Source of the DNA: a virus
DNA: 34,308 nucleotides
Virus record (IMG/VR): IMGVR_UViG_3300020215_000108
Span: 1 to 34,308 of that record
Direction: 5' to 3' (one strand)
Part shown: positions 8,977-32,928 of the stretch, one piece after another
Numbering within the stretch: position 1 is the stretch's first letter
Layout of the letters: the number at the start of each line of letters is the position of its first letter
The notes under the pieces: generated by a model
Seen by the model: the letters and a program-made list of their open reading frames with translations, nothing else
Told to the model about the DNA's origin: nothing
The model's database searches: none
Made by a program: the position numbers and the translations under genes

Positions 8977-9273
8977 TTAACATCTGGTTTTCGTCTTCTT
9001 ACACACCGCAGCCAGCCGATATTCAGCCATCGCTACCTTGCGGTTTGCCGTTTCCAGATTTGTCCGCATGGCTTCGAGCTTGAGATAAGAATCCATCGCC
9101 TTAAGCTCAGCCTCTCTCTTTCCGTAGAAAGCGATAACCACATCCGCCTCTGCCCTTTTCTTCATTCCCTCACCAATCTCATACCCTGCGTACATCAGGG
9201 AGAAAGCGATGGCGATTCCAACAATCAAGCCACAGGCGCATAGGGTGATGAATTGGAGCGGGCGGAGGGTCAT
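8977..9273 (-). CDS. Membrane-anchored coiled-coil protein
   Basis: 98 residues. One membrane segment (FITLCACGLIVGIAIAFSLM, about 8-30), then a helical domain to the C-terminus with coiled-coil character (REAELKAMDSYLKLEAMRTN). The architecture recalls an inner-membrane spanin (Rz), but it is deep in the early operon, far from the endolysin, so I do not call it one. The ATG overlaps the upstream stop (ATGA). Confidence 0.55.
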   Translation of the reverse strand: MTLRPLQFITLCACGLIVGIAIAFSLMYAGYEIGEGMKKRAEADVVIAFYGKREAELKAMDSYLKLEAMRTNLETANRKVAMAEYRLAAVCKKTKTRC

Positions 9274-9425
9274 TTCGCCATCCTCTTGCGACCTTCAACA
9301 CACGCTCTGCAATTACAGGGTGGGTTGAGATATGAGTAGACTTCTTCGGGCGTCATATCGCCGAACCTTTTTTTGTATAGGTCGCGATTCATTTTGTGAA
9401 ACTCAACAATTTCGGGGTAAGTCAT
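9270..9425 (-). CDS. Small Cys-motif protein (51 aa)
   Basis: ATG 9425 with GGGGAGG upstream. The sequence starts MTYPEIVEFHKMNRDLYKKR and ends with PPCNCRACVEGRKRMAK. CNCRAC (about 37-42) could bind zinc with His10. Its TGA overlaps the next ATG and its start lies two bases after the upstream stop. Not recognised. Confidence 0.58.
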   Translation of the reverse strand: MTYPEIVEFHKMNRDLYKKRFGDMTPEEVYSYLNPPCNCRACVEGRKRMAK

Positions 9426-9426
9426 A

Positions 9427-9600
9427 TCAGCAACCTCCCCGCTCATTCCCCTCGGCCCATTTGTTGTAGAACTGGCATTGCTCCTCTTTGGTCCACGGCT
9501 GATTCGGTTGCTCTAAATCACAAGCAACCATCATCCCCAGGCAGACTAGGATTCCGACGATGCAAAAGGCGATGGCGAGGGAGTTGAGGAGACGGGTCAT
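9427..9600 (-). CDS. Small membrane protein or lipoprotein (57 aa)
   Basis: MTRLLNSLAIAFCIVGILVC then LGMMVACDLEQPNQP. The hydrophobic stretch ends in MVAC, a weak lipobox (Cys27, Asp at +2 favouring the inner membrane), or it may be a simple anchor. The remaining 30 residues are polar with two Cys. ATG 9600 overlaps the upstream TGA. Function unknown. Confidence 0.6.
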   Translation of the reverse strand: MTRLLNSLAIAFCIVGILVCLGMMVACDLEQPNQPWTKEEQCQFYNKWAEGNERGGC

Positions 9601-9812
9601 TGTTTGCTCCTGTCTTTGGTTGCTGTTTGCTCCATGTGCCAGAGGCCGTGCGCCACGGTCATTGCATCTTCGTCAGTCATGCAGTCGAAATGGATTTCAC
9701 GACCGCCCTCAAGCGTCACATTGGTCGTTCGCAAGCCACTTATCTGCTCCCACATTTCCACGAAATAACTGATGTATTCGCGGGCTTTGTCGGCTGTTTC
9801 GAAATTAATCAT
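9597..9812 (-). CDS. Hypothetical protein
   Basis: 71 residues: helix (ADKAREYISYFVEMWEQISG), strands (TTNVTLEGGREIHFDC), then a helix containing MTDEDAMTVAHGLWHMEQTA. It looks like a compact alpha/beta domain. It is coupled to the small membrane gene downstream (ATGA). Not recognised. Confidence 0.55.
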   Translation of the reverse strand: MINFETADKAREYISYFVEMWEQISGLRTTNVTLEGGREIHFDCMTDEDAMTVAHGLWHMEQTATKDRSKQ

Positions 9813-11987: not shown

Positions 11988-13142
11988 TTATTCCGCACTC
12001 TTGTCTTCCAATTTGTAAGCGCTCAGAGCAATCTGAGCGAATGAAGGCGGTAACTGTTTCTGTTCAACCTTGTTGTTTATGTATTTAGTGAATTTACCAT
12101 CTCCTATGTAGTTCTCTCTCATCCACCGGCGGAATTCAGGAAGCGCGGCTTCCGGGTAGCACCATGCTGGTTGCGGGTTCGATTCCGCTTGCGGAAAGTA
12201 CTCAGGATAATTGTGCTCCCATTTCGTCCTGGCTCCGAACTTCTGATCAAAGCCGCTCTTGGTCCAGTGTTGACCCCAGCACAAGCCTACGCTCAAGTCA
12301 GGAACAAACGACTCATCAATATGCAGCCCTGCTTGACCGAGCGTGACTATCATGTCGGCGATTTCCTTGAAAACGCTGAAGTAACCGACCGGTACGGAGT
12401 TGTAAGTTAAAGAGACGCGGTCATGGAATTGCCTCCAGACCTGGGGGACCTTGTTGGCAGGGTCATATCCGACTTGCGCATAAATGAAGTCATGCAACGC
12501 CCTACCAGCCAAGAGGCGGAAATTCTTCTTCGCTTCTTCTCGGACATTTGGAGCATCGAATGCGTAGTATTCAAGAACTGCAACGCTAACCACGTCGGGA
12601 TAAGCGTGGAATACCGACGTGCGCTGATCAATGGGAATGAAAGGGTGTTCTACAACAATGCCTCGGGAAGCCAAAATCTCTTTTACCTTGACCGTCAAAG
12701 GCAGCGAGGCTGTGTCCCAGTCCGTACTCATTTCGCTAATGCGTGAGCTGTCTATGCCACAGAGTTTGGCAAGACCACGGCCGTTTAAGAATGCGGTGCC
12801 ATCTGAAAGCACCCCCATCCCTATGCCGTCTATTTCCTTTTGGCGATCTATTTGAAGATCGAAGCTAAGCTGCGTATCAGGGGTGCGCGGATTTTCAGTG
12901 GTTTGAGGCACTAAAACCTTGATTTCATTAGGAATAACCCCGCGCGGCTGATTTGGTACTAAGAAATCGTCCCCTGTAAGCTCAACCCCATTTTCTAGCG
13001 CAGCCTTAAGCAGTCTGGTCTGCCATTTAGCAGGAATAATTCCTGTTTTAAACCAATAACTTACAGTGCTTTGGCCAATCCCAAGGGCCTTTGCAAGGGC
13101 TGATTGACCACCAAATTTTTCAATAATTTTATGTGCGTTCAT
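11988..13142 (-). CDS. HTH protein with large unknown C-terminal domain (candidate BstA-like or antirepressor)
   Basis: 384 residues. Residues 3-60 form a YdaS/Cro-type helix-turn-helix (KIIEKFGGQSALAKALGIGQ, then STVSYWFKTGIIPAKW). A linker of about 35 residues follows. Residues 105-165 (GVLSDGTAFLNGRGLAKLCG) recall the start of KilA-N/antirepressor domains. The C-terminal 200 residues are aromatic and acidic with many Trp and Tyr (VWRQFHDRVSLTYNSVPVGY; WEHNYPEYFPQ) and end in a basic helix. It lies between repressor and rightward promoter, the place of rexAB in lambda and bstA in BTP1. A phage-exclusion or antirepressor function is inferred. The palindromes at 13151-13189 suggest autoregulation. 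Confidence 0.6.
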   Translation of the reverse strand: MNAHKIIEKFGGQSALAKALGIGQSTVSYWFKTGIIPAKWQTRLLKAALENGVELTGDDFLVPNQPRGVIPNEIKVLVPQTTENPRTPDTQLSFDLQIDRQKEIDGIGMGVLSDGTAFLNGRGLAKLCGIDSSRISEMSTDWDTASLPLTVKVKEILASRGIVVEHPFIPIDQRTSVFHAYPDVVSVAVLEYYAFDAPNVREEAKKNFRLLAGRALHDFIYAQVGYDPANKVPQVWRQFHDRVSLTYNSVPVGYFSVFKEIADMIVTLGQAGLHIDESFVPDLSVGLCWGQHWTKSGFDQKFGARTKWEHNYPEYFPQAESNPQPAWCYPEAALPEFRRWMRENYIGDGKFTKYINNKVEQKQLPPSFAQIALSAYKLEDKSAE

Positions 13143-16652: not shown

Positions 16653-17428
16653 ACATCGGACTACAAAACGTGCCAGAAGACACTTACCACGCAGACCGAA
16701 CTGCGGTAAGTAAGAGCTGGCTGGATTACATCGAGCGCAGCCCCGCGCACCTGAAGGCTTATCTTGATGGCCTGACATATCGAGATTCTGAGGAACTCGA
16801 CATAGGGCGCCTGGCGCATTGCCTGATCCTGGAGGAAGACCGGTTCCTGAAGCAGTTCGTTTGCGCCCCGAAGGTCGATAAGCGGACCACGGCCGGGAAA
16901 CAGCAGTGGGCGGAATTCGAGGCGGCTAACAAGGGCCGAACGCTGGTCACTCAGGACCACTACAAGCTGGTTTTCAATATCCGTGATGCGGTGATGAAGC
17001 ACTCCAAAGCCGCTGCCCTACTTCGTAACGGCGAACCCGAGAAAACGATTGTCTGGAAGGACGCCAACACCGGAGAACTATGCAAGGCCCGTGCGGACTG
17101 GCTGAGACAAAACGCGATTGTTGACATAAAGACCACTCGGGACGCTAGACCGGCGGAGTTTTCCAAATCGATAGCCAACTTCCGCTATCACGTGCAAGCG
17201 GCTCATTACGAGGCCGGGTTCAACTTAAACAGGTTCATCTTTATCGCCGTGGAGAAAGATCCTCCGTTTGGGGTGGCGGTCTACTTCGCAGACTCGGAAA
17301 TGGTGAGGTCCGGAACCGAGGCACGAGCAAGAAACCTGGAAGCTTACGCCGAGTGCAAAGCTTCGGGTAATTGGCCCTGTTACAGCGAGAGCATTACAAC
17401 CATTCAACTGCCGCGTTGGGCGGCTTAG
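16646..17428 (+). CDS. RecE-like PD-(D/E)XK exonuclease (DUF3799)
   Basis: 260 residues from ATG 16646. It probably degrades one strand of duplex DNA 5'-3' and passes the other to the annealase next door. Nuclease motifs: RLAHCLILE with His58, KARADWL with Asp151, VDIKTT with Asp160 and Lys162, and QAAHYEAGF giving Gln184/Tyr188 (QxxxY). The start YHADRTAVSKSWLDYIERSP is typical of RecE C-terminal/DUF3799 proteins. It forms a Red-type pair with the Bet gene that starts nine bases after its stop. Confidence 0.85.
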   Translation: MLNIGLQNVPEDTYHADRTAVSKSWLDYIERSPAHLKAYLDGLTYRDSEELDIGRLAHCLILEEDRFLKQFVCAPKVDKRTTAGKQQWAEFEAANKGRTLVTQDHYKLVFNIRDAVMKHSKAAALLRNGEPEKTIVWKDANTGELCKARADWLRQNAIVDIKTTRDARPAEFSKSIANFRYHVQAAHYEAGFNLNRFIFIAVEKDPPFGVAVYFADSEMVRSGTEARARNLEAYAECKASGNWPCYSESITTIQLPRWAA

Positions 17429-21142: not shown

Positions 21143-21603
21143 CCCTCTGCCGCCACTGCCTAAAGCCATACGAGCCAAACCGTGTCTGCTCATTCCAAAA
21201 GAAGCAGGACGGTAACGCGCTGTGTGCGCCGGAGCCGGAGAGGAAGGTTTCTAAGTCGGTTATGGTGAAGGTTAATCTCGGTTTAGCAAGGTGGGTCTTC
21301 CCAGACGATGACTGGTTAGCTACCAATGACGGTCAAGTAGTATCCATACCGGATGACGCGGAAGCGCCATCTCAATACTTTGATATCTCTGACGAACACG
21401 ACCTCAAGTCTACGTTGGCTAAACTGCTCAAACACAACTGGTCCATCAAAGAAACCAAACGCGGCGGCAAGCCGTGGTATGTCGCAGTGAAACTCAATAA
21501 TGAACCCGGAAAACCCAGAACAGAGGACGGTGAAGGCCACCCGGATAAAGCAATTCTGATTTCCCGGATCGTTCAGGAAATTACGGGGGAGAGGTGGGAT
21601 TAA
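21139..21603 (+). CDS. Hypothetical protein with N-terminal zinc-finger-like motif
   Basis: 154 residues. CRHCLKPYEPNRVCSF and a further Cys at about 29 suggest a four-Cys zinc site. A variable linker follows, then a mixed alpha/beta domain (WVFPDDDWLATNDGQVVSIP; DLKSTLAKLLKHNWSIKETK). It precedes xis with a TAATG overlap, the usual place of an accessory early gene. No function recognised. Confidence 0.55.
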   Translation: MTLCRHCLKPYEPNRVCSFQKKQDGNALCAPEPERKVSKSVMVKVNLGLARWVFPDDDWLATNDGQVVSIPDDAEAPSQYFDISDEHDLKSTLAKLLKHNWSIKETKRGGKPWYVAVKLNNEPGKPRTEDGEGHPDKAILISRIVQEITGERWD

Positions 21604-21872
21604 TGGCACTGATTACGCTAATTGATTGGGCAAAAGACAGTCTTGGACTGGACCCTCCCCCACCTATTCGCACCCTACAAAAGTGGGCCAGGGATGGGAA
21701 TATCTACCCGAAGCCGCAGTTATTCGGGCGGGAATACCGGGTGGAAGCGGACGCGGTATATATAAGGAAGGCCAGAAAGCCGAGCATAGGCCCAATTCAC
21801 GTGTTAAAGTCTGGAGATCCAGTAGTCAATGACATTATCAGTGGGAAGACCCAGAAGCGCAGGCAGGCGTGA
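21603..21872 (+). CDS. xis: Excisionase (Xis)
   Basis: 89 residues from ATG 21603, overlapping the previous stop. It directs Int towards excision by bending DNA at attP/attR. ALITLIDWAKDSLGLDPPPP, then IRTLQKWARDGNIYPKPQLF and GREYRVEADAVYI follow lambda Xis: LQEW, R..ETVRRWVRECRIFP and GREY.F...AV. The C-terminus is longer and basic. It overlaps int by 44 bases, as lambda xis and int overlap. Confidence 0.85.
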   Translation: MALITLIDWAKDSLGLDPPPPIRTLQKWARDGNIYPKPQLFGREYRVEADAVYIRKARKPSIGPIHVLKSGDPVVNDIISGKTQKRRQA

Positions 21873-23040
21873 TCTGCCGGATAATCTCACCCCCCGCATT
21901 CGCGGGGATGTAACCTATTGGTACTGGCGTGATCCAAGGGACGGGATAGAAAAGCCGTTGAAATGTCCCGGTGATAGATCAACCGCCATTCAGAGAGCAA
22001 AGGAATTAAATGCGCTAGTCACTCAAGAACTGGCCGAGAAAATTGTTTCTGACCTCATCGCCTCCCCGAAACGCAGCAAAGAAACACCGTTTAATGCGTT
22101 TGCTGTCCGATACCTTACACAATTAGAAGCACGGGAGTTTGCCAGCAATACGCTGAGGATGCGGAAGAGCCTGGTTAATGCGGCCATCCGGTATTTCGAG
22201 GACAAGCCCATTCGGGAGATCGGAGTGCCGGATATAGTCTCTCTTTTGAGATCCCTCACCTCACAGAGTAAGCACCGAATGGCGCAGGCCGTCCGAAGCA
22301 CATTAATAGACTTATGGGACGAAGCACACGCGGAAGGGTTATTGCCAGCAAATCATCCCAACCCCGCCCGCATCGCCAGGCGCCCGAAGGCCAAGGTGAA
22401 GCGCGCACGGTTAACGCTTGAAGCGTTTAACGCAATATTGGAATCCGCAAAGCGGTTTGCAGAGAAGCGTGGGGAGTGGATGCCGAACAGTATGTTGCTG
22501 GGTCTGGTAACAGGACAAAGGCCGAGTGATCTTGTCACCGCTCAGTTTCGAAGGGGTAAGGACTGGCTGGACGCTTGGCAGGCTTATCAGGCGGACTCCA
22601 AAAACAACCCGCCGCCCTACCCTCATGTACACGAGGGTTTTTTTTGGGTGGTTCAGCAGAAAACCGGAGCCTTGGTAAAAATTCCATTGAGCTTGCGACT
22701 TAATGCAATTGGAATGAGCGTTGGTGAGGTGATTGAGAAGTGCCGTTCACGGGTCGCGAGCCGGTACATATTGCACCACACAATCCCATTCGGTAACGCC
22801 CCACTGGGTAGCCCGATCAGTAATTTTCGCATTGCTCACGGCTTTGCAGACGCCAGGGATGCAACGGATTTGGAGTGGCTGGGGAAAGAGCCGCCGCCCT
22901 ATTACGAGATCCGATCACTTTCGGAGCGCCTGTACAGCGAACAGGGAATCAACACTCAATCCCTACTCGGACACAAGCATAAGAAGATGACCGAAGTTTA
23001 CGCGGACCCGCGACAAGCGGAGTGGATTACGGTAGGATAA
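21829..23040 (+). CDS. int: Lambda-type tyrosine integrase
   Basis: 403 residues from ATG 21829; GTG 21841 would give MGRPRSAGRRDLPDNL, aligning with the start of lambda Int, and is a good alternative. Arm-binding domain about 5-65, core-binding about 85-180, catalytic from about 190. Catalytic residues seen: Arg231 (TGQRPSDL), Lys278 (QQKTG), Arg362 (EIRSL), His382 (LLGHK) and Tyr391 (TEVYADPR). The His of the HxxR box is Tyr359 here (YYEIRSL). It integrates the phage by recombining attP with attB. It is the last gene of the rightward early operon. Confidence 0.92.
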   Translation: MTLSVGRPRSAGRRDLPDNLTPRIRGDVTYWYWRDPRDGIEKPLKCPGDRSTAIQRAKELNALVTQELAEKIVSDLIASPKRSKETPFNAFAVRYLTQLEAREFASNTLRMRKSLVNAAIRYFEDKPIREIGVPDIVSLLRSLTSQSKHRMAQAVRSTLIDLWDEAHAEGLLPANHPNPARIARRPKAKVKRARLTLEAFNAILESAKRFAEKRGEWMPNSMLLGLVTGQRPSDLVTAQFRRGKDWLDAWQAYQADSKNNPPPYPHVHEGFFWVVQQKTGALVKIPLSLRLNAIGMSVGEVIEKCRSRVASRYILHHTIPFGNAPLGSPISNFRIAHGFADARDATDLEWLGKEPPPYYEIRSLSERLYSEQGINTQSLLGHKHKKMTEVYADPRQAEWITVG

Positions 23041-23267
23041 TGGAAATATTCCGGGAGAATTTCGGAAATACCCCAAATTACCCGAGTAAAACCGCTGTGT
23101 GTTTGCTCCCCATGCAGACGAACAAAACGTTAACTTTTCCCATGAGAATTAATAGCTTAGGTGGGTTTTAAGGGTTAAAAATCGTGTATCAAAACAGCAG
23201 AACGCATCATATAACATTCAATGACTTACGCGGTAGATTCGGAAATGCCCGACGCTATATATATGGC
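23041..23267. other. Candidate attP interval (no gene)
   Basis: 227 bases with no plausible gene between int and the last tail gene. A 13-bp near-direct repeat, TTCGGAAATRCCC, lies at 23061-23073 and 23238-23250 (the latter in the 30 bases before the tail stop), and could be arm-type Int or Xis sites. AT-rich stretches (23120-23185) would suit IHF. No core identical to a tRNA or tmRNA end is recognisable, so the host site is unknown. No strong terminator is seen for either convergent unit. Confidence 0.45.
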
Positions 23268-23888
23268 TTAGGCAATCCGTTTCACGTAGCAGATACCGGT
23301 GGCAGCTTCGCTCAAGACAATGGTTCCAAGGGAAGTGTGGGTCGCGGTATCCCAGCGGGTGCCTACAATCGCCGTATGGCGCGAACCGGCCAAAGTAACG
23401 CCAAAGGCTATGCAATTACCAAACGATACCGCCCCAATTATGGTGATCGTGCCAGTAATGTGCTGATACCGCATCGCGGCTGTATCAAAATGCCCGTTAC
23501 CATTACTATCAACAACATCAACCTCATCTGTGGCAAAGGTTGTGGACGCTCTAAGGTCGCACCGATTATATCCGCCAATATCCTCAGTATTATTTGCTTG
23601 GATATAAAAATCAGAATCAGCCGCAAAAGACATGTGATCGAACGCTATTCGAATCTCATAAACCCCATCCTCACACGCAATATTAAGCGGAGTGCTGGCA
23701 GCGCTTATGGAGATTTTGGCGGTTTCGCCAACAGAAAGCCGGTAATCGGAAGGGGCATTGGTAAGATCGGCAACGGTATCAAGTTTGTGATGCCGCGAAG
23801 AAAGAGCATTGAGCGAACGAATAATGCCACTTCGCCACCTATCAATGGCCTGCCCTGCTTTTAAATCAAAAAATCGGATAAAGTCCAT
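23268..23888 (-). CDS. Putative tail fibre or tail-tip protein
   Basis: 206 residues. A short helical start (FIRFFDLKAGQAIDRWRSGI) is followed by an all-beta body with FATDEVDVVDSNGNGHFDTA (about 117-136) and a C-terminal domain of repeated short strands (HTSLGTIVLSEAATGICYVK). Asp/Asn-Gly-rich loops resemble calcium sites. As last gene of the late operon it is where receptor-binding proteins usually sit. No clear ribosome binding site precedes ATG 23888. No enzymatic domain is visible. Confidence 0.55.
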   Translation of the reverse strand: MDFIRFFDLKAGQAIDRWRSGIIRSLNALSSRHHKLDTVADLTNAPSDYRLSVGETAKISISAASTPLNIACEDGVYEIRIAFDHMSFAADSDFYIQANNTEDIGGYNRCDLRASTTFATDEVDVVDSNGNGHFDTAAMRYQHITGTITIIGAVSFGNCIAFGVTLAGSRHTAIVGTRWDTATHTSLGTIVLSEAATGICYVKRIA

Positions 23889-23907: not shown

Positions 23908-24144
23908 TCAGGTCTTAACCAGAACAAAGCTACAATCCTGTGGATTTTTCCCTTTCTTCTCTACTTTAATACCTATTCTCTTTTCTGGGTCATTGGATGG
24001 AATATCGGTAGGAATAATTTCCAGGTCTCCGACTTTATAATTTTTGTTTATCTCATCAAAGACTGCGCTTTGTAGCTCCGCATACTTCTTTTTTGCGTCC
24101 AAAGCCTCTTTTACCAAACTAATAATGGCGTTTTTATGGCCCAT
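23908..24144 (-). CDS. Hypothetical protein between tail genes
   Basis: 78 residues: a helix (AIISLVKEALDAKKKYAELQ), then strands (DLEIIPTDIPSNDPEKRIGI) and a basic end. GGAG lies ten bases before the ATG. It may be a small chaperone or adaptor of the flanking fibre proteins. Its direct role is unknown. Confidence 0.55.
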   Translation of the reverse strand: MGHKNAIISLVKEALDAKKKYAELQSAVFDEINKNYKVGDLEIIPTDIPSNDPEKRIGIKVEKKGKNPQDCSFVLVKT

Positions 24145-24159
24145 TTAATGAACTCCGTG

Positions 24160-24208
24160 TTGAAAATTACAATAGATACGTCATACTCTCTGTAAGGAAC
24201 AGAGAGTA
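24160..24208 (+). promoter_or_regulatory. Promoter and inverted repeat before the lipoprotein gene
   Basis: TTGAAA (24160-24165) and CATACT (24182-24187) with a 16-base spacer form a plausible + strand promoter. TACTCTCTG (24184-24192) pairs perfectly with CAGAGAGTA (24200-24208) across TAAGGAA. If transcription starts at this promoter the repeat would act at DNA level as an operator over the -10 and start. If transcripts come from further upstream it would fold and hide the GAGAG ribosome binding site. Confidence 0.55.
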
Positions 24209-24213
24209 GTTTT

Positions 24214-24762
24214 ATGGAAAAAAACATTCTTAAGGCCGCGATACTGGCCTGCATGGTTGCAGCCTGCAAAGGAGGGTCAGGCGGTTCTGGATCATCGCTA
24301 AACAACTCTGACCCTGATGACCCACCACCAGAAGAGCCAACCGAACCAAAGCTTGAATCTTATCCATTCGATTTCGACATGGAGACACCTGGCGGTATCC
24401 AAATACAGACCAACAACATATTCGCTCCAGATGTTGATCAGTTAGATACTTGGTATGAAGAAACTCAGCAATGCGTGGCTGACGCCTTCACCACCCTAGG
24501 AATTTCCGGGTTCGAGTTTTTTGATGGGCCTCCAGTTGTAATAACTGAAGACCTTGAAGATTTATGCGCCACCGAAACCGGGTGGAACGCGGTTTATTGT
24601 GCTAATTATGAAACCCCGTTTATGGGTATAACTCAAATCAATGCTCAGTTCGCTAATAACTGGAAACACGAATTCATACATCACATTCTGTTTTATAACG
24701 AATTTGACGAGCAAATGAATTTAAACCACACCCCAACAGAAATATGGAATTGTCAAAATTAG
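24214..24762 (+). CDS. Cargo lipoprotein with HExxH metallopeptidase-like motif
   Basis: 182 residues. A signal peptide (MEKNILKAAILACMVAAC) has lipobox VAAC (Cys18 lipidated), followed by a Gly/Ser then Pro/Asp/Glu-rich tether to about residue 48. The domain from 50 has four Cys (87, 118, 129, 180) and ends with KHEFIHHILFYN, an HExxH motif (His152, Glu153, His156). His172 in LNHTPTEIW is a possible third zinc ligand. It is transcribed against all surrounding late genes and overlaps the fibre gene stop by four bases. A lysogen-expressed surface protease is inferred; the family is not recognised. Confidence 0.7.
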   Translation: MEKNILKAAILACMVAACKGGSGGSGSSLNNSDPDDPPPEEPTEPKLESYPFDFDMETPGGIQIQTNNIFAPDVDQLDTWYEETQQCVADAFTTLGISGFEFFDGPPVVITEDLEDLCATETGWNAVYCANYETPFMGITQINAQFANNWKHEFIHHILFYNEFDEQMNLNHTPTEIWNCQN

Positions 24763-25685
24763 ACTTCAAATCCCTGTAAATTAATCTCAATACCTCTTGC
24801 CGAATCTACGGTTGCTACCCAAGTTAAATCCATCCTTCGACTCGAATCAAGAGGTACTTTTATATTCGAATAATGAAGCACAACCACATCACCAATTGCC
24901 GCGGCTTCATACTCATAACCAGCTAAATTGGTTAACTCTGTTGTCCCGGCTGAACTCCCAGTTCTTCTTCCGTAGAGATTAATCCCACCTCCCGATGTGG
25001 CGCTAGTAGTAAAGGTCATTTCTAACTTCAGAATGGCAGCTCTGGCACCAGAAGGTGCGGAGTCTAATGGGGTCCATATATTTGTCGCGGATGAGCCTGT
25101 TGGTCCTATTGATTCAAAGGTGCCTTCTGTAATGTTTGCGTCAACGTCGAATCCAGTGCTGTCTGCCCCATCATTATGCAAATAAGTGGTTCTTACTTTG
25201 GTATACCCAGTGACGTCCGGGGTAGATGTTAACTCTATGGTTGAGCCTGTAATGGATGAAGAGCAAACAACGGCCGCACTAAGATTAATAGACCCGCTTC
25301 CGTTCGGGTCGAGCGTGATATCTCCATTAGAGTTCGTTGAGGAAATTGTATTGCCATTAAAAGCGAGATTGGCAACGATGTTAAACGGCGTCAAATTATC
25401 AATCGTCCACACAGCACCTGAGTTTGCATCCGCTGCGGCCTGCGATGGATATAGTGAGAGTTTGTATGCCTGGTCAACGTGCGGGATGATCACGTTCCCT
25501 GAAACGGTTGGGTATCCCTGCGAGTTGAGTGTAACCGTATTTACCAACGTGCCGCCGGTATTGTCAGTTGCCATCTGTAGCAGCGTAGAGGTGCCGTCTT
25601 GATAAGCTTTCAGAACATACCCCGACGCGGGCGCGCCGCTTACATGATACTGAGGCACAGTCAAAGCAATAGGATAATGAGCCAT
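24759..25685 (-). CDS. Tail fibre / tailspike with P22-like head-binding start
   Basis: 308 residues, GGAG seven bases before the ATG. The first 110 residues (YPIALTVPQYHVSGAPASGY, VLKAYQDGTSTLLQMATDNT, VTLNSQGYPTVSGNVIIPHV) follow the adaptor domain that joins tailspikes and fibres to P22-type tails. The middle has repeating Gly/Asn/Thr strands (NGNTISSTNSNGDITLDPNG), and the C-terminal half is a beta-sandwich with no visible endoglycosidase motif. It should be the receptor-binding fibre, at the end of the ejection-protein block where P22 has its tailspike. Confidence 0.72.
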   Translation of the reverse strand: MAHYPIALTVPQYHVSGAPASGYVLKAYQDGTSTLLQMATDNTGGTLVNTVTLNSQGYPTVSGNVIIPHVDQAYKLSLYPSQAAADANSGAVWTIDNLTPFNIVANLAFNGNTISSTNSNGDITLDPNGSGSINLSAAVVCSSSITGSTIELTSTPDVTGYTKVRTTYLHNDGADSTGFDVDANITEGTFESIGPTGSSATNIWTPLDSAPSGARAAILKLEMTFTTSATSGGGINLYGRRTGSSAGTTELTNLAGYEYEAAAIGDVVVLHYSNIKVPLDSSRRMDLTWVATVDSARGIEINLQGFEV

Positions 25686-27889: not shown

Positions 27890-29001
27890 TACTTTCTCAC
27901 CGTCACGGTAAAGCGGCCAACCTTCTGTGCGCCTTCAGCCGGTTGCTGCTGGTTCGCATCAGGTTGCGCGGCTGGTTTAGGACCAGCGCCCAGCTTTGAT
28001 CGAACGATGGCGTCAATATTCCGCATCTTGGCCTGTATTGCCTCAGGGTGATCCTTCCTAGTTGGCACCATATCCAGCAACAGTTTCTGGTCCTGATCTG
28101 TAAACGTGCCTTCACCTGAGAGTCTAAATATAGACTTCAAAACAGGGGCCGCAGCTGTAACCGCGCCTTCAGCAATTTGCTGATCGGCGGTTACGGCCGG
28201 AAGCCTGCCTTCAACTGGACCTGTCTTGGTTTCAGAGAGTGCCGAAGTAAGCCCAGCCATTGCCTTTTCATAGGTATCCAGTGCAATAGCGTTTTTCTTG
28301 GCAACGCCTTCCGCCTCAACTTCAAGTTTCACGCGCTCCTGCGCCGCTGTTACCGCCGCTTTCACACTGGGAAGTTTCTCTAGCTGTGCATCAAGTTCCG
28401 CCCTTTCGGCAGCCCCGGCTTTCCCCCCGGCAATTCTTGATTCAGAGTTTGTGACTTTATCCGTCAGCCCATCAGTCGTAGCGGTTGTGATTACAGAAGA
28501 TCCAACCGCCCGAGGATCAAGGCCAAGGGCTATTCTCCGGGCTTTATCTTGCTCTTCTGGCTTGAGGCCCTTTGTCATCGACTCAAACTCAACAAGCCCG
28601 GCAGGCTTGCCGGTTTTGTCGAACATATTCACCATTTGAATGGCATTATTCGCCACCGCCTTTAGCATCACCGGATCTTGGTCCAGCATCACCAACCCCT
28701 GATCGATATCTCGGGTATCAAGTCCCAATTTCTTAAATTGGTCTCTACGGCTGGTTAATATGCCTCGGGTTCCTTCGATATCATTGGCTTCCAGAGTCGG
28801 GATGATTTGCCCGGCAGTGATCGCCATTGACTTGAGGCGTGCCTGGTCCGCTTCCGTTAGTGCGGCCTGTTTTCTCAGGCCCGCTGTCTGGCGGTTCTCG
28901 CGAATAGCATTTATATTCGCCGCGTTAGTTAACGCGTTGCCAACGGTCTGCCCTAAATCAGGCGTTTGAGTCTGTAACGCTATAAGCGGGTTAATGGGCA
29001 T
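27889..29001 (-). CDS. gp20-like ejection protein
   Basis: 370 residues from ATG 29001, overlapping the previous gene by 11 bases; the longer frame from 29037 is unlikely. It is almost wholly helical and rich in Ala, Gln and Lys (PINPLIALQTQTPDLGQTVG; ANINAIRENRQTAGLRKQAA), with a coiled-coil middle (KAAVTAAQERVKLEVEAEGV) and a Pro/Gln-rich C-terminus. Order gp7-like, this, gp16-like equals P22 7-20-16. It is packaged in the head and released into the host at infection, by analogy. Confidence 0.7.
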   Translation of the reverse strand: MPINPLIALQTQTPDLGQTVGNALTNAANINAIRENRQTAGLRKQAALTEADQARLKSMAITAGQIIPTLEANDIEGTRGILTSRRDQFKKLGLDTRDIDQGLVMLDQDPVMLKAVANNAIQMVNMFDKTGKPAGLVEFESMTKGLKPEEQDKARRIALGLDPRAVGSSVITTATTDGLTDKVTNSESRIAGGKAGAAERAELDAQLEKLPSVKAAVTAAQERVKLEVEAEGVAKKNAIALDTYEKAMAGLTSALSETKTGPVEGRLPAVTADQQIAEGAVTAAAPVLKSIFRLSGEGTFTDQDQKLLLDMVPTRKDHPEAIQAKMRNIDAIVRSKLGAGPKPAAQPDANQQQPAEGAQKVGRFTVTVRK

Positions 29002-29944
29002 ACGTCGAATGTCTCTCCAGTTCTGTGTAATCCACAAACTTCACGCCAAACACGTCAAGAACAGCACCAGGCACAACCGGCTCCACATCCTGAGCCATGA
29101 CACCGACTACACGCTCAGGGCCGAATATATACCGGAAGCTGTAAACAGGAATTCCGTTATCCAAAACACCAACCTGCTCAAGATCAGTCTTAAAGCGTCT
29201 ATCAGAGAGGAATATTCCGAGGGCGGTTAATGCGCCCTGTGCCATATTGTTAGTGCCTTGAGTTAAAGCATTCCCAGCCCCGACTAAACCGGACGCCCTG
29301 GCGTTTGCGCCGCCGGTCATGAGGTCTGTTATCGCATTCCCGGCGCCCTGGGTCGCAGTACCAGTCATGGCCGCTGCGTTTTGGCCAATAGTGGCGGCGT
29401 TCTGGCGGTTCGTTATGGAGTTCTGTCTTAAATTTCCAGCATTGAAGTAATTCCCAAGCGACTGTTGACGATTACCAATGGCCTGCTGAACCAGGTTATT
29501 CCCCAACAACAAAAGTTGGTTTTGAAGTTCAACTGGAGTGTCCCCTGTTCCCAATTTCCCCCTTGCGGCCTGAAGATTCATCAGCCGATTCTGGGAATCA
29601 TTCGCCAGAGCGGCATAAAAAGGATTGTTCTTTACGAATTTAAATTGGGCATTCGGATCGCTGATAAATTTATCTAAAGCCCCAATCCGGTTATCCATGC
29701 CGGAAACATACTGCTCAAAACCGCCAAGCTGTTGGTTTAAGTTGAGTAGCTGATTGCTACCAAACTCGCGATAAGGCTCAAGATCGTTTCTGATTGTCTT
29801 AAGAAACTGTTTTTGCGCCTTGATAGCATCCTGCGATGCTTGATACTGAAGCTCGGCCGCCCTCTCAGATGTTTCAGCCGCCGTTTGCCCGGTCAGCCCT
29901 TTGTGCATGTCTTTGCCGGTTAAATCAAATCCGTTAATGCTCAT
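28991..29944 (-). CDS. gp7-like ejection protein with S74-like C-terminal domain
   Basis: 317 residues, versus about 229 in P22 gp7. Residues 1-245 are helical and Gln/Ala-rich with a repeated NRQ..A pattern. From Ser247, SDRRFKTDLEQVGVLDNGIP, VYSFRYIFG, VVGVMAQDVEPVVPGAVLDV and VDYTEL follow the intramolecular-chaperone (Peptidase S74-like) layout used by tail fibres for trimerisation. Here it is joined to an ejection protein. The ATG overlaps the gp14-like stop (ATGA). Confidence 0.75.
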   Translation of the reverse strand: MSINGFDLTGKDMHKGLTGQTAAETSERAAELQYQASQDAIKAQKQFLKTIRNDLEPYREFGSNQLLNLNQQLGGFEQYVSGMDNRIGALDKFISDPNAQFKFVKNNPFYAALANDSQNRLMNLQAARGKLGTGDTPVELQNQLLLLGNNLVQQAIGNRQQSLGNYFNAGNLRQNSITNRQNAATIGQNAAAMTGTATQGAGNAITDLMTGGANARASGLVGAGNALTQGTNNMAQGALTALGIFLSDRRFKTDLEQVGVLDNGIPVYSFRYIFGPERVVGVMAQDVEPVVPGAVLDVFGVKFVDYTELERHSTYAH

Positions 29945-32025: not shown

Positions 32026-32212
32026 TCTTCACCGTCAGGGTTTCTTTGGCCACTTCCTGAACCAACTCATAGTTCGGGTTCTTCTTTGCCTTTTCTATAA
32101 AAGGTCCAGTGAATTCCACAACATCACCAGTTTTGTGGGTTTTGCCCTGATACCCTGCAACCTCTCCATCTACCTTCTTGATGAACTTAAACTTCACTGC
32201 CTTATCGCTCAT
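32015..32212 (-). CDS. Small head-operon protein, SH3-like
   Basis: 65 residues. KVDGEVAGYQGKTHKTGDVV, EFTGPFIEKAKKNPNYELV reads as beta strands followed by one helix. Small proteins with this V.G....GD.V..T....KA..NP.FE.V layout are common in phage head operons. The role could be connector-associated. The ATG overlaps the previous TGA (ATGA). Confidence 0.55.
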   Translation of the reverse strand: MSDKAVKFKFIKKVDGEVAGYQGKTHKTGDVVEFTGPFIEKAKKNPNYELVQEVAKETLTVKNAK

Positions 32213-32928
32213 TTGATCACCGCTGATTGAGTTAATGAAATGTTTTGCCCTGAACGCCTAGCCCTATCAACCTTGTCCAAGCGTTCATAGACTTGTTTTG
32301 CGCCACTGTGCGCGGCTTTCTTTAGTTCGAGCTGGCGCATCTGCTCATCACACTCGGCCATTTTCGCCTCATGCTGATTCGCCATCTCAAGGAATTCGTT
32401 TTTCGCTTTCTCTTTGTTGAAGCGGTAATCTCTGCCCTCGATGTAATCGCTTTTCATCAAAGGGGAAGATGGATGGATAACTACTTCAATCCCTTTACCC
32501 ATTGCATATCCAATCCAGGCGGACATACAGGGCTGTTGCATGAAGTACTCGTGATTATCTACAGCCATATCCACGCCATAGATTGAAATTTGTTCATAGT
32601 CCCCTATGAGGGCCATAGCCATCATGTAAGCCGGGGTGCTAGTTAAAAACCCTTTTAATGCCTCGGCTCCGTATGGGAAAAATCTGATATGAGGAGCCTT
32701 GATGGGGAATTTCTCGCCCACAACGAGCGGTATCCCAAGGTTCGCTAAAAACTCAGGGTATTCTGGAGGATGTTCCGAAAGGTCATCGTGTATCTCGAAT
32801 ATTCTGGTTATTCGTTTGTCCCGGTAACGGTCAATCTGATTACCGTGAACCCAGATTTCAAACGTCTCATCGGAGAATGGAGCATCAACCCAACTCGGCG
32901 AACCGCCAACAATCGCAACCTTTTTCAA
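32209..32928 (-). CDS. Rossmann-like phage protein (DUF115/MptE-like), coiled-coil tail
   Basis: 239 residues, TTG start at 32928 with GGGGGC just upstream. VAIVGGSPSWVDAPFSDETF is a nucleotide-binding-like first strand and loop, followed by EIWVHGNQIDRYRDKRITRI, FEIH, and TPAYMMAMALIGDYEQISIY, GVDM. This fits the layout of 6-hydroxymethylpterin-pyrophosphokinase MptE-like/DUF115 proteins found in phage head regions. Residues 175-220 are coiled coil (KAKNEFLEMANQHEAKMAEC). A nucleotide or sugar substrate is possible; the virion or host role is unknown. Confidence 0.6.
   Translation of the reverse strand: MKKVAIVGGSPSWVDAPFSDETFEIWVHGNQIDRYRDKRITRIFEIHDDLSEHPPEYPEFLANLGIPLVVGEKFPIKAPHIRFFPYGAEALKGFLTSTPAYMMAMALIGDYEQISIYGVDMAVDNHEYFMQQPCMSAWIGYAMGKGIEVVIHPSSPLMKSDYIEGRDYRFNKEKAKNEFLEMANQHEAKMAECDEQMRQLELKKAAHSGAKQVYERLDKVDRARRSGQNISLTQSAVIK

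Follow-up and report, generated by a model that had tools for sequence, protein, structure and literature searches.

The closest described arrangement to the locus considered here is that of phage P22, in which gene 16 is followed by sieA (on the opposite strand), mnt, arc, ant, the tailspike gene, gtrCBA (again on the opposite strand), attP and int. Both opposite-strand cargos, sieA and gtrABC, act at the envelope of lysogens. Envelope morons are also familiar from phage lambda, whose Bor and Lom are cell-envelope proteins expressed from the prophage. Among zinc peptidases, the HExxH zincins, such as the SprT-like enzymes, have an aromatic residue and a distal His C-terminal to this motif. 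The region of P22 that precedes the tailspike gene is known as the "ant moron", and its length and content vary among P22-like phages (PMC2629481). Phage lipoproteins that block receptors are represented by the Llp proteins of T5 and BF23, as set out in the cited portion of PMC4728585.

The DNA analyzed here (the window) comprises 34,308 bases and is a virus record from IMG/VR. Its late genes lie on the minus strand and include those for the major capsid protein (PF13252), the head closure protein Hc3 (phrog_578), a DNA-ejection/virion protein and the tail end, as well as a lysis cassette of holin and endolysin genes (506-2643) far from the gene of interest. That gene (24214-24762) encodes a 182-aa predicted lipoprotein with the motif HEFIHH followed by H172, and it is located on the plus strand amid neighboring late genes that are all on the minus strand, as the preliminary description had reported. 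The same description had placed the gene at 24184-24762; the end is correct, whereas the start is not, as the coding sequence begins at 24214 and the interval had included 30 nt of upstream DNA. On one side, the final late gene to precede the slot encodes a tail/appendage protein (24759-25685, minus strand); it converges with the gene of interest, and the stops of the two share 4 nt (TTAG). On the other side, we observe a divergent 78-aa ORF (23908-24144, minus strand) and then P206, a tail appendage gene of 206 aa (23268-23888, minus strand). Past P206 come the conserved non-coding stretches 3′ of int that make up the probable attP region (23094-23247), the tyrosine integrase gene (21829-23040, plus strand) and a small gene in the excisionase position (21594-21872, plus strand).

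Elsewhere in the window, the minus-strand gene at 28991-29944 encodes a protein of the ejection/virion type. Its C-terminal part has matches to tail-fiber profiles as well and may be a self-cleaving chaperone domain carried by an ejection protein. Within the late operon, a 239-aa gene (32209-32928, minus strand) has a product that is 32% identical to that of a gene in a Microcystis phage, where the annotation is type 11 methyltransferase. The window also contains a BstA-family gene (11988-13142, minus strand; PADLOC E 1e-114), the product of which combines a carph-isopro domain with an HTH of the phage-repressor type at its N-terminus; BstA is described as a prophage defense protein in the cited portion of PMC8585504.

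Using a degenerate DNA pattern (W-x-HEF-x-HH) across IMG/VR, we find one true relative of the gene, on contig 3300020215_000130 (L022:1515-2045), at 51% identity. This homologue keeps the lipobox and the tether, Glu153 and every one of the four histidines, and it also has four cysteines in its body. The preliminary description had considered that HExxH might be lost in close relatives; it is instead unchanged in L022, with the qualification that the search pattern required HEFxHH, so that conservation of the motif is partly a product of the search itself. The pattern made no demand on His172 in its NHxPxEIWxC context, on the lipobox or the cysteines, or on the remainder of the 51% identity. 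The segment WKHEFIHHILF is identical across 11 residues (permutation p 0.03), while different codons are used at 40 of the 85 residues that are identical between the two proteins. The dN/dS ratio for the pair is 0.13 by NG86, where dS is saturated, and 0.28 by LWL85, and from these ratios we conclude that this is a genuine gene subject to constraint.

Further searches yielded no additional members. Single-protein scans of viral contigs and genome contigs gave no relative, profile scans built on the alignment of the two members or on an integrase alignment (neither of which required the motif) returned only contig 3300020215_000130 again, and a scan of genome contigs with the head-closure protein gave no match. 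The protein likewise has no family or sequence match in Pfam, PHROGs, NCBIfam, PADLOC, PDB, or the phage and plasmid collections, and no peptidase family of Pfam or NCBIfam is matched even at E 10, in agreement with the earlier statement that no named family is known with this arrangement. PDB profile matches to Nup98 and to an SLT-domain protein were set aside as tether or chance matches. These empty family searches are what one would expect of a chance open frame without function. Such a frame is ruled out by the L022 homologue, which lies in another phage, is 51% identical with an identical architecture, and gives a dN/dS well below 1; the likelihood that we attach to it is vanishingly small. 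The remaining pattern matches were rejected as short frames. A lipoprotein-like ORF in an unrelated phage (L017:2146-2925, minus strand) contains WRHEFVHHLDF with DH further on, and it may be a convergent case or a distant cousin; it shares just a 13-residue match and was left uncounted as a homologue.

The slot that holds the gene varies in content among relatives. In L005, where the tail-end proteins are 49-89% identical to those of the window (49% for P206 and L005:5877-6494), the relatives of the two slot-flanking genes directly abut, 3 nt apart, without cargo, and the 78-aa ORF is likewise missing. The same slot in L003 is occupied by an unrelated gene (16802-17281, minus strand; 159 aa) that is again on the opposite strand to the tail genes. 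Its product has a signal peptide and resembles an outer-membrane barrel (PF13505, E 1e-4, which is below the curated cut-off), and the gene likewise converges with the late gene before it, the stop codons overlapping by 4 nt; a similar junction is found at the L022 homologue. The L022 phage, in turn, shares its integrase end with the window: the integrase is 75% identical and the excisionase-position gene 79% identical (both values for the L022/L024 phage), and non-coding DNA close to int is common to both, with 89% and 86% identity at 23094-23138 and 23204-23247. Its head and tail genes differ from those of the window except for one 35-residue stretch. A shared integrase end combined with differing virion genes indicates that the cargo moves together with the former rather than with the latter. 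The L005 slot is empty, L003 fills it with a different exported cargo, and the homologue belongs to a phage whose virion genes differ. All three observations agree with the initial suggestion of a moron, and comparison of the genomes thus supports the assignment of the window gene as a moron, placed on the strand opposite to the late operon in a slot of variable content.

The same comparison bears on whether the protein instead acts in the lytic cycle, as a lysis accessory or as a protease that processes virion or ejection proteins. Its location among tail genes would fit, and processing of this kind has a precedent in P22, where gp7 is cleaved by the host protease OpdA (P22 annotation). However, the gene is on the strand opposite to the late operon, relatives with intact tail genes lack it, the phage of the homologue has different virion proteins, the genes for holin and endolysin lie in another part of the window, and a lipoprotein signal is ill-suited to a virion assembly protease. 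We consider a lytic role very improbable. An o-spanin was rejected on the grounds that the gene is outside the lysis cassette.

L005 has another opposite-strand cargo gene (9092-9715, minus strand; 207 aa) without a family, which is near the integrase gene and is convergent with and abuts the last tail fiber gene. Two virion-type genes, L006:6474-8207 and L007:18588-20792 (+), have predicted Sec signal peptides, which is odd for structural proteins; that of L006 is similar to the N-terminal part of the tail gene at 24759-25685 in the window.

Within the 182-aa protein, we find all of the elements noted in the preliminary description, namely the lipobox, the tether, the four cysteines and KHEFIHH near the end. 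A predicted signal peptide (residues 1-17, MEKNILKAAILACMVAA; 24214-24264, plus strand) precedes Cys18, the candidate lipidation site at which the lipobox VAAC ends, and the residue at +2 is Lys rather than Asp. The homologue begins with its own canonical lipobox, MRYLLLTILLVAG-C. Read by eye, both MEKNILKAAILACMVAAC (window) and MRYLLLTILLVAGC (L022) have what we take to define a lipoprotein signal, i.e., a positively charged n-region, a short hydrophobic stretch and a lipobox ending in Cys; a crude script typed the window protein as a Sec signal rather than a lipobox as a result of its short h-region. Directly after the lipobox, a 30-residue tether rich in Ser, Gly, Asn, Pro and acidic residues (residues 19-48, KGGSGGSGSSLNNSDPDDPPPEEP; 24268-24357, plus strand) leads to the body, which contains C87, C118, C129 and C180. 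The tether of L022 is similar in character.

The protein has four histidines in all (152, 156, 157 and 172), in line with the earlier numbering. HEFIH (residues 152-156; 24667-24681, plus strand) is embedded in the 11-residue segment shared with the homologue, and His172 (24727-24729, plus strand) is the candidate third zinc ligand, lying 16 residues past His156 in the window and 18 past it in L022. D165 and E176 are also conserved in L022 and are alternative candidates for the third ligand; with two members to compare, the assignment of ligands is weak. When the mature sequence is shuffled, 0.7% of the shuffles contain an HExxH, and the motif by itself is therefore weak evidence; it becomes strong when considered with its conservation in L022, where WKHEFIHHILF and all four histidines are kept. 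AlphaFold models have a pLDDT of 36.6 with one sequence and 33.2 with two, a low confidence that we attribute to the lack of homologues as input.

These models give no zinc ligand geometry, which leaves room for a protein that occludes a receptor or another envelope partner in the manner of Llp, with HExxHH...H serving as a structural metal site or binding face rather than as a catalytic center. As reported in the cited portion of PMC4728585, the Llp proteins of T5 and BF23 block receptors without catalysis. We nevertheless regard a non-catalytic blocker as unlikely, as Glu153 is invariant in both members. A conserved Glu within HExxH makes this the classical motif of catalysis, and at 182 aa the protein is presumably larger than Llp-type blockers.

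The region upstream of the gene had been described as containing its own predicted promoter, which our analysis does not bear out. The match, TTGAAA-N16-CATACT (24160-24187, plus strand), scores 9/12, and there are 3 such sites in the region versus 5.5 ± 2.7 expected, such that this weak promoter-like sequence is not commoner than in shuffles. Overlapping its -10-like element is a perfect 10-bp inverted repeat of 25 nt in total, TACTCTCTGT-AAGGA-ACAGAGAGTA (24184-24208, plus strand), with the likely Shine-Dalgarno sequence in its 3′ arm. One inverted repeat of such quality is found in the whole window, where 0.45 are expected by shuffling; one such repeat somewhere in a genome is unremarkable, and only its position at the start of the moron gene stands out. 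This palindrome was not found upstream of the L022 gene. It could, speculatively, be an operator or a hairpin that masks the ribosome-binding site; as a single occurrence, it is unlikely to be an operator of the phage repressor.

Taken together, our preferred explanation is that the gene is a conversion moron of a temperate podovirus with P22-like gene order, encoding a prophage-expressed, outer-membrane, zinc-peptidase-like lipoprotein that probably serves to exclude superinfecting phages or to remodel the envelope; we assign this explanation a probability of roughly 0.4. The lysogen would transcribe the gene independently of the silent late operon, and the product would be exported by Sec and lipidated at Cys18, with the Lys at +2 sorting it to the outer membrane if E. 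coli rules apply. There, a disulfide-stabilized domain would bind zinc, with His152 and His156, and probably also His172, as ligands and Glu153 as the catalytic base, and the peptidase would cut an envelope protein or a protein of an incoming phage. The most likely benefit would be superinfection exclusion, through a trimmed phage receptor or a cut ejected tail protein, which would make the moron an enzymatic counterpart of sieA and gtrABC, the genes at the corresponding positions of P22. That the protein acts on the envelope of the infected bacterium, changing or protecting it, is probable; the metalloprotease and exclusion functions are plausible, with the exclusion role being inferred from position and precedent.

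The evidence on export, lipidation and HExxH fits equally well with an exported zinc-peptidase lipoprotein that serves host fitness, for instance in the processing of envelope proteins, the breakdown of extracellular peptides or defense against competitors or grazers. Genes for host fitness are common cargo of morons, which also speaks for this alternative. On the other hand, the matching slots of P22 hold exclusion and receptor-altering genes, and the window phage invests in anti-phage defense in the form of BstA. A host-fitness role is thus possible, if on the doubtful side. Returning to superinfection exclusion, an extended form of this proposal, in which the two proteins represent a new family of zinc peptidases, encoded by phages and anchored in the outer membrane, that exclude superinfecting phages proteolytically by cutting receptors or incoming tail/ejection proteins, is put forward only tentatively and is somewhat doubtful. 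If true, it would provide a testable two-member family from uncultured phages. P22-style cargo slots are also seen here to recur in environmental podoviruses, with predicted envelope proteins as their content.

When compared to P22, the window resembles the sieA slot in having an opposite-strand gene between the ejection-protein end and the tailspike end of the late operon, in the convergence of this gene with the preceding late gene, and in the variation of slot content among relatives. Unlike the sieA slot, the window has an HExxH lipoprotein and no recognizable mnt, arc or ant genes, and we take SieA to be of a different protein family (the two were not aligned here). The L022 homologue instead lies where gtrABC is found in P22, between the tail gene and attP/int and convergent with the tail gene; gtrABC encodes membrane enzymes that modify O-antigen, whereas the window and L022 each encode a single exported lipoprotein, as predicted. 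Bor and Lom presumably differ from the moron in having no peptidase motif, and the L003 barrel-like protein is comparable in kind to Lom. With the zincins, the moron shares HExxH, a distal His and an aromatic residue, without a Pfam or NCBIfam peptidase match. The Llp proteins of T5 and BF23 are likewise phage-encoded envelope lipoproteins and provide a precedent for exclusion, although they belong to T5-like phages, are made during infection and have no HExxH described in the cited portion of PMC4728585. Exclusion and conversion morons known so far mostly block, modify or mask envelope structures, and a lipid-anchored peptidase in the sieA and gtr positions would, if true, add an irreversible enzymatic route.
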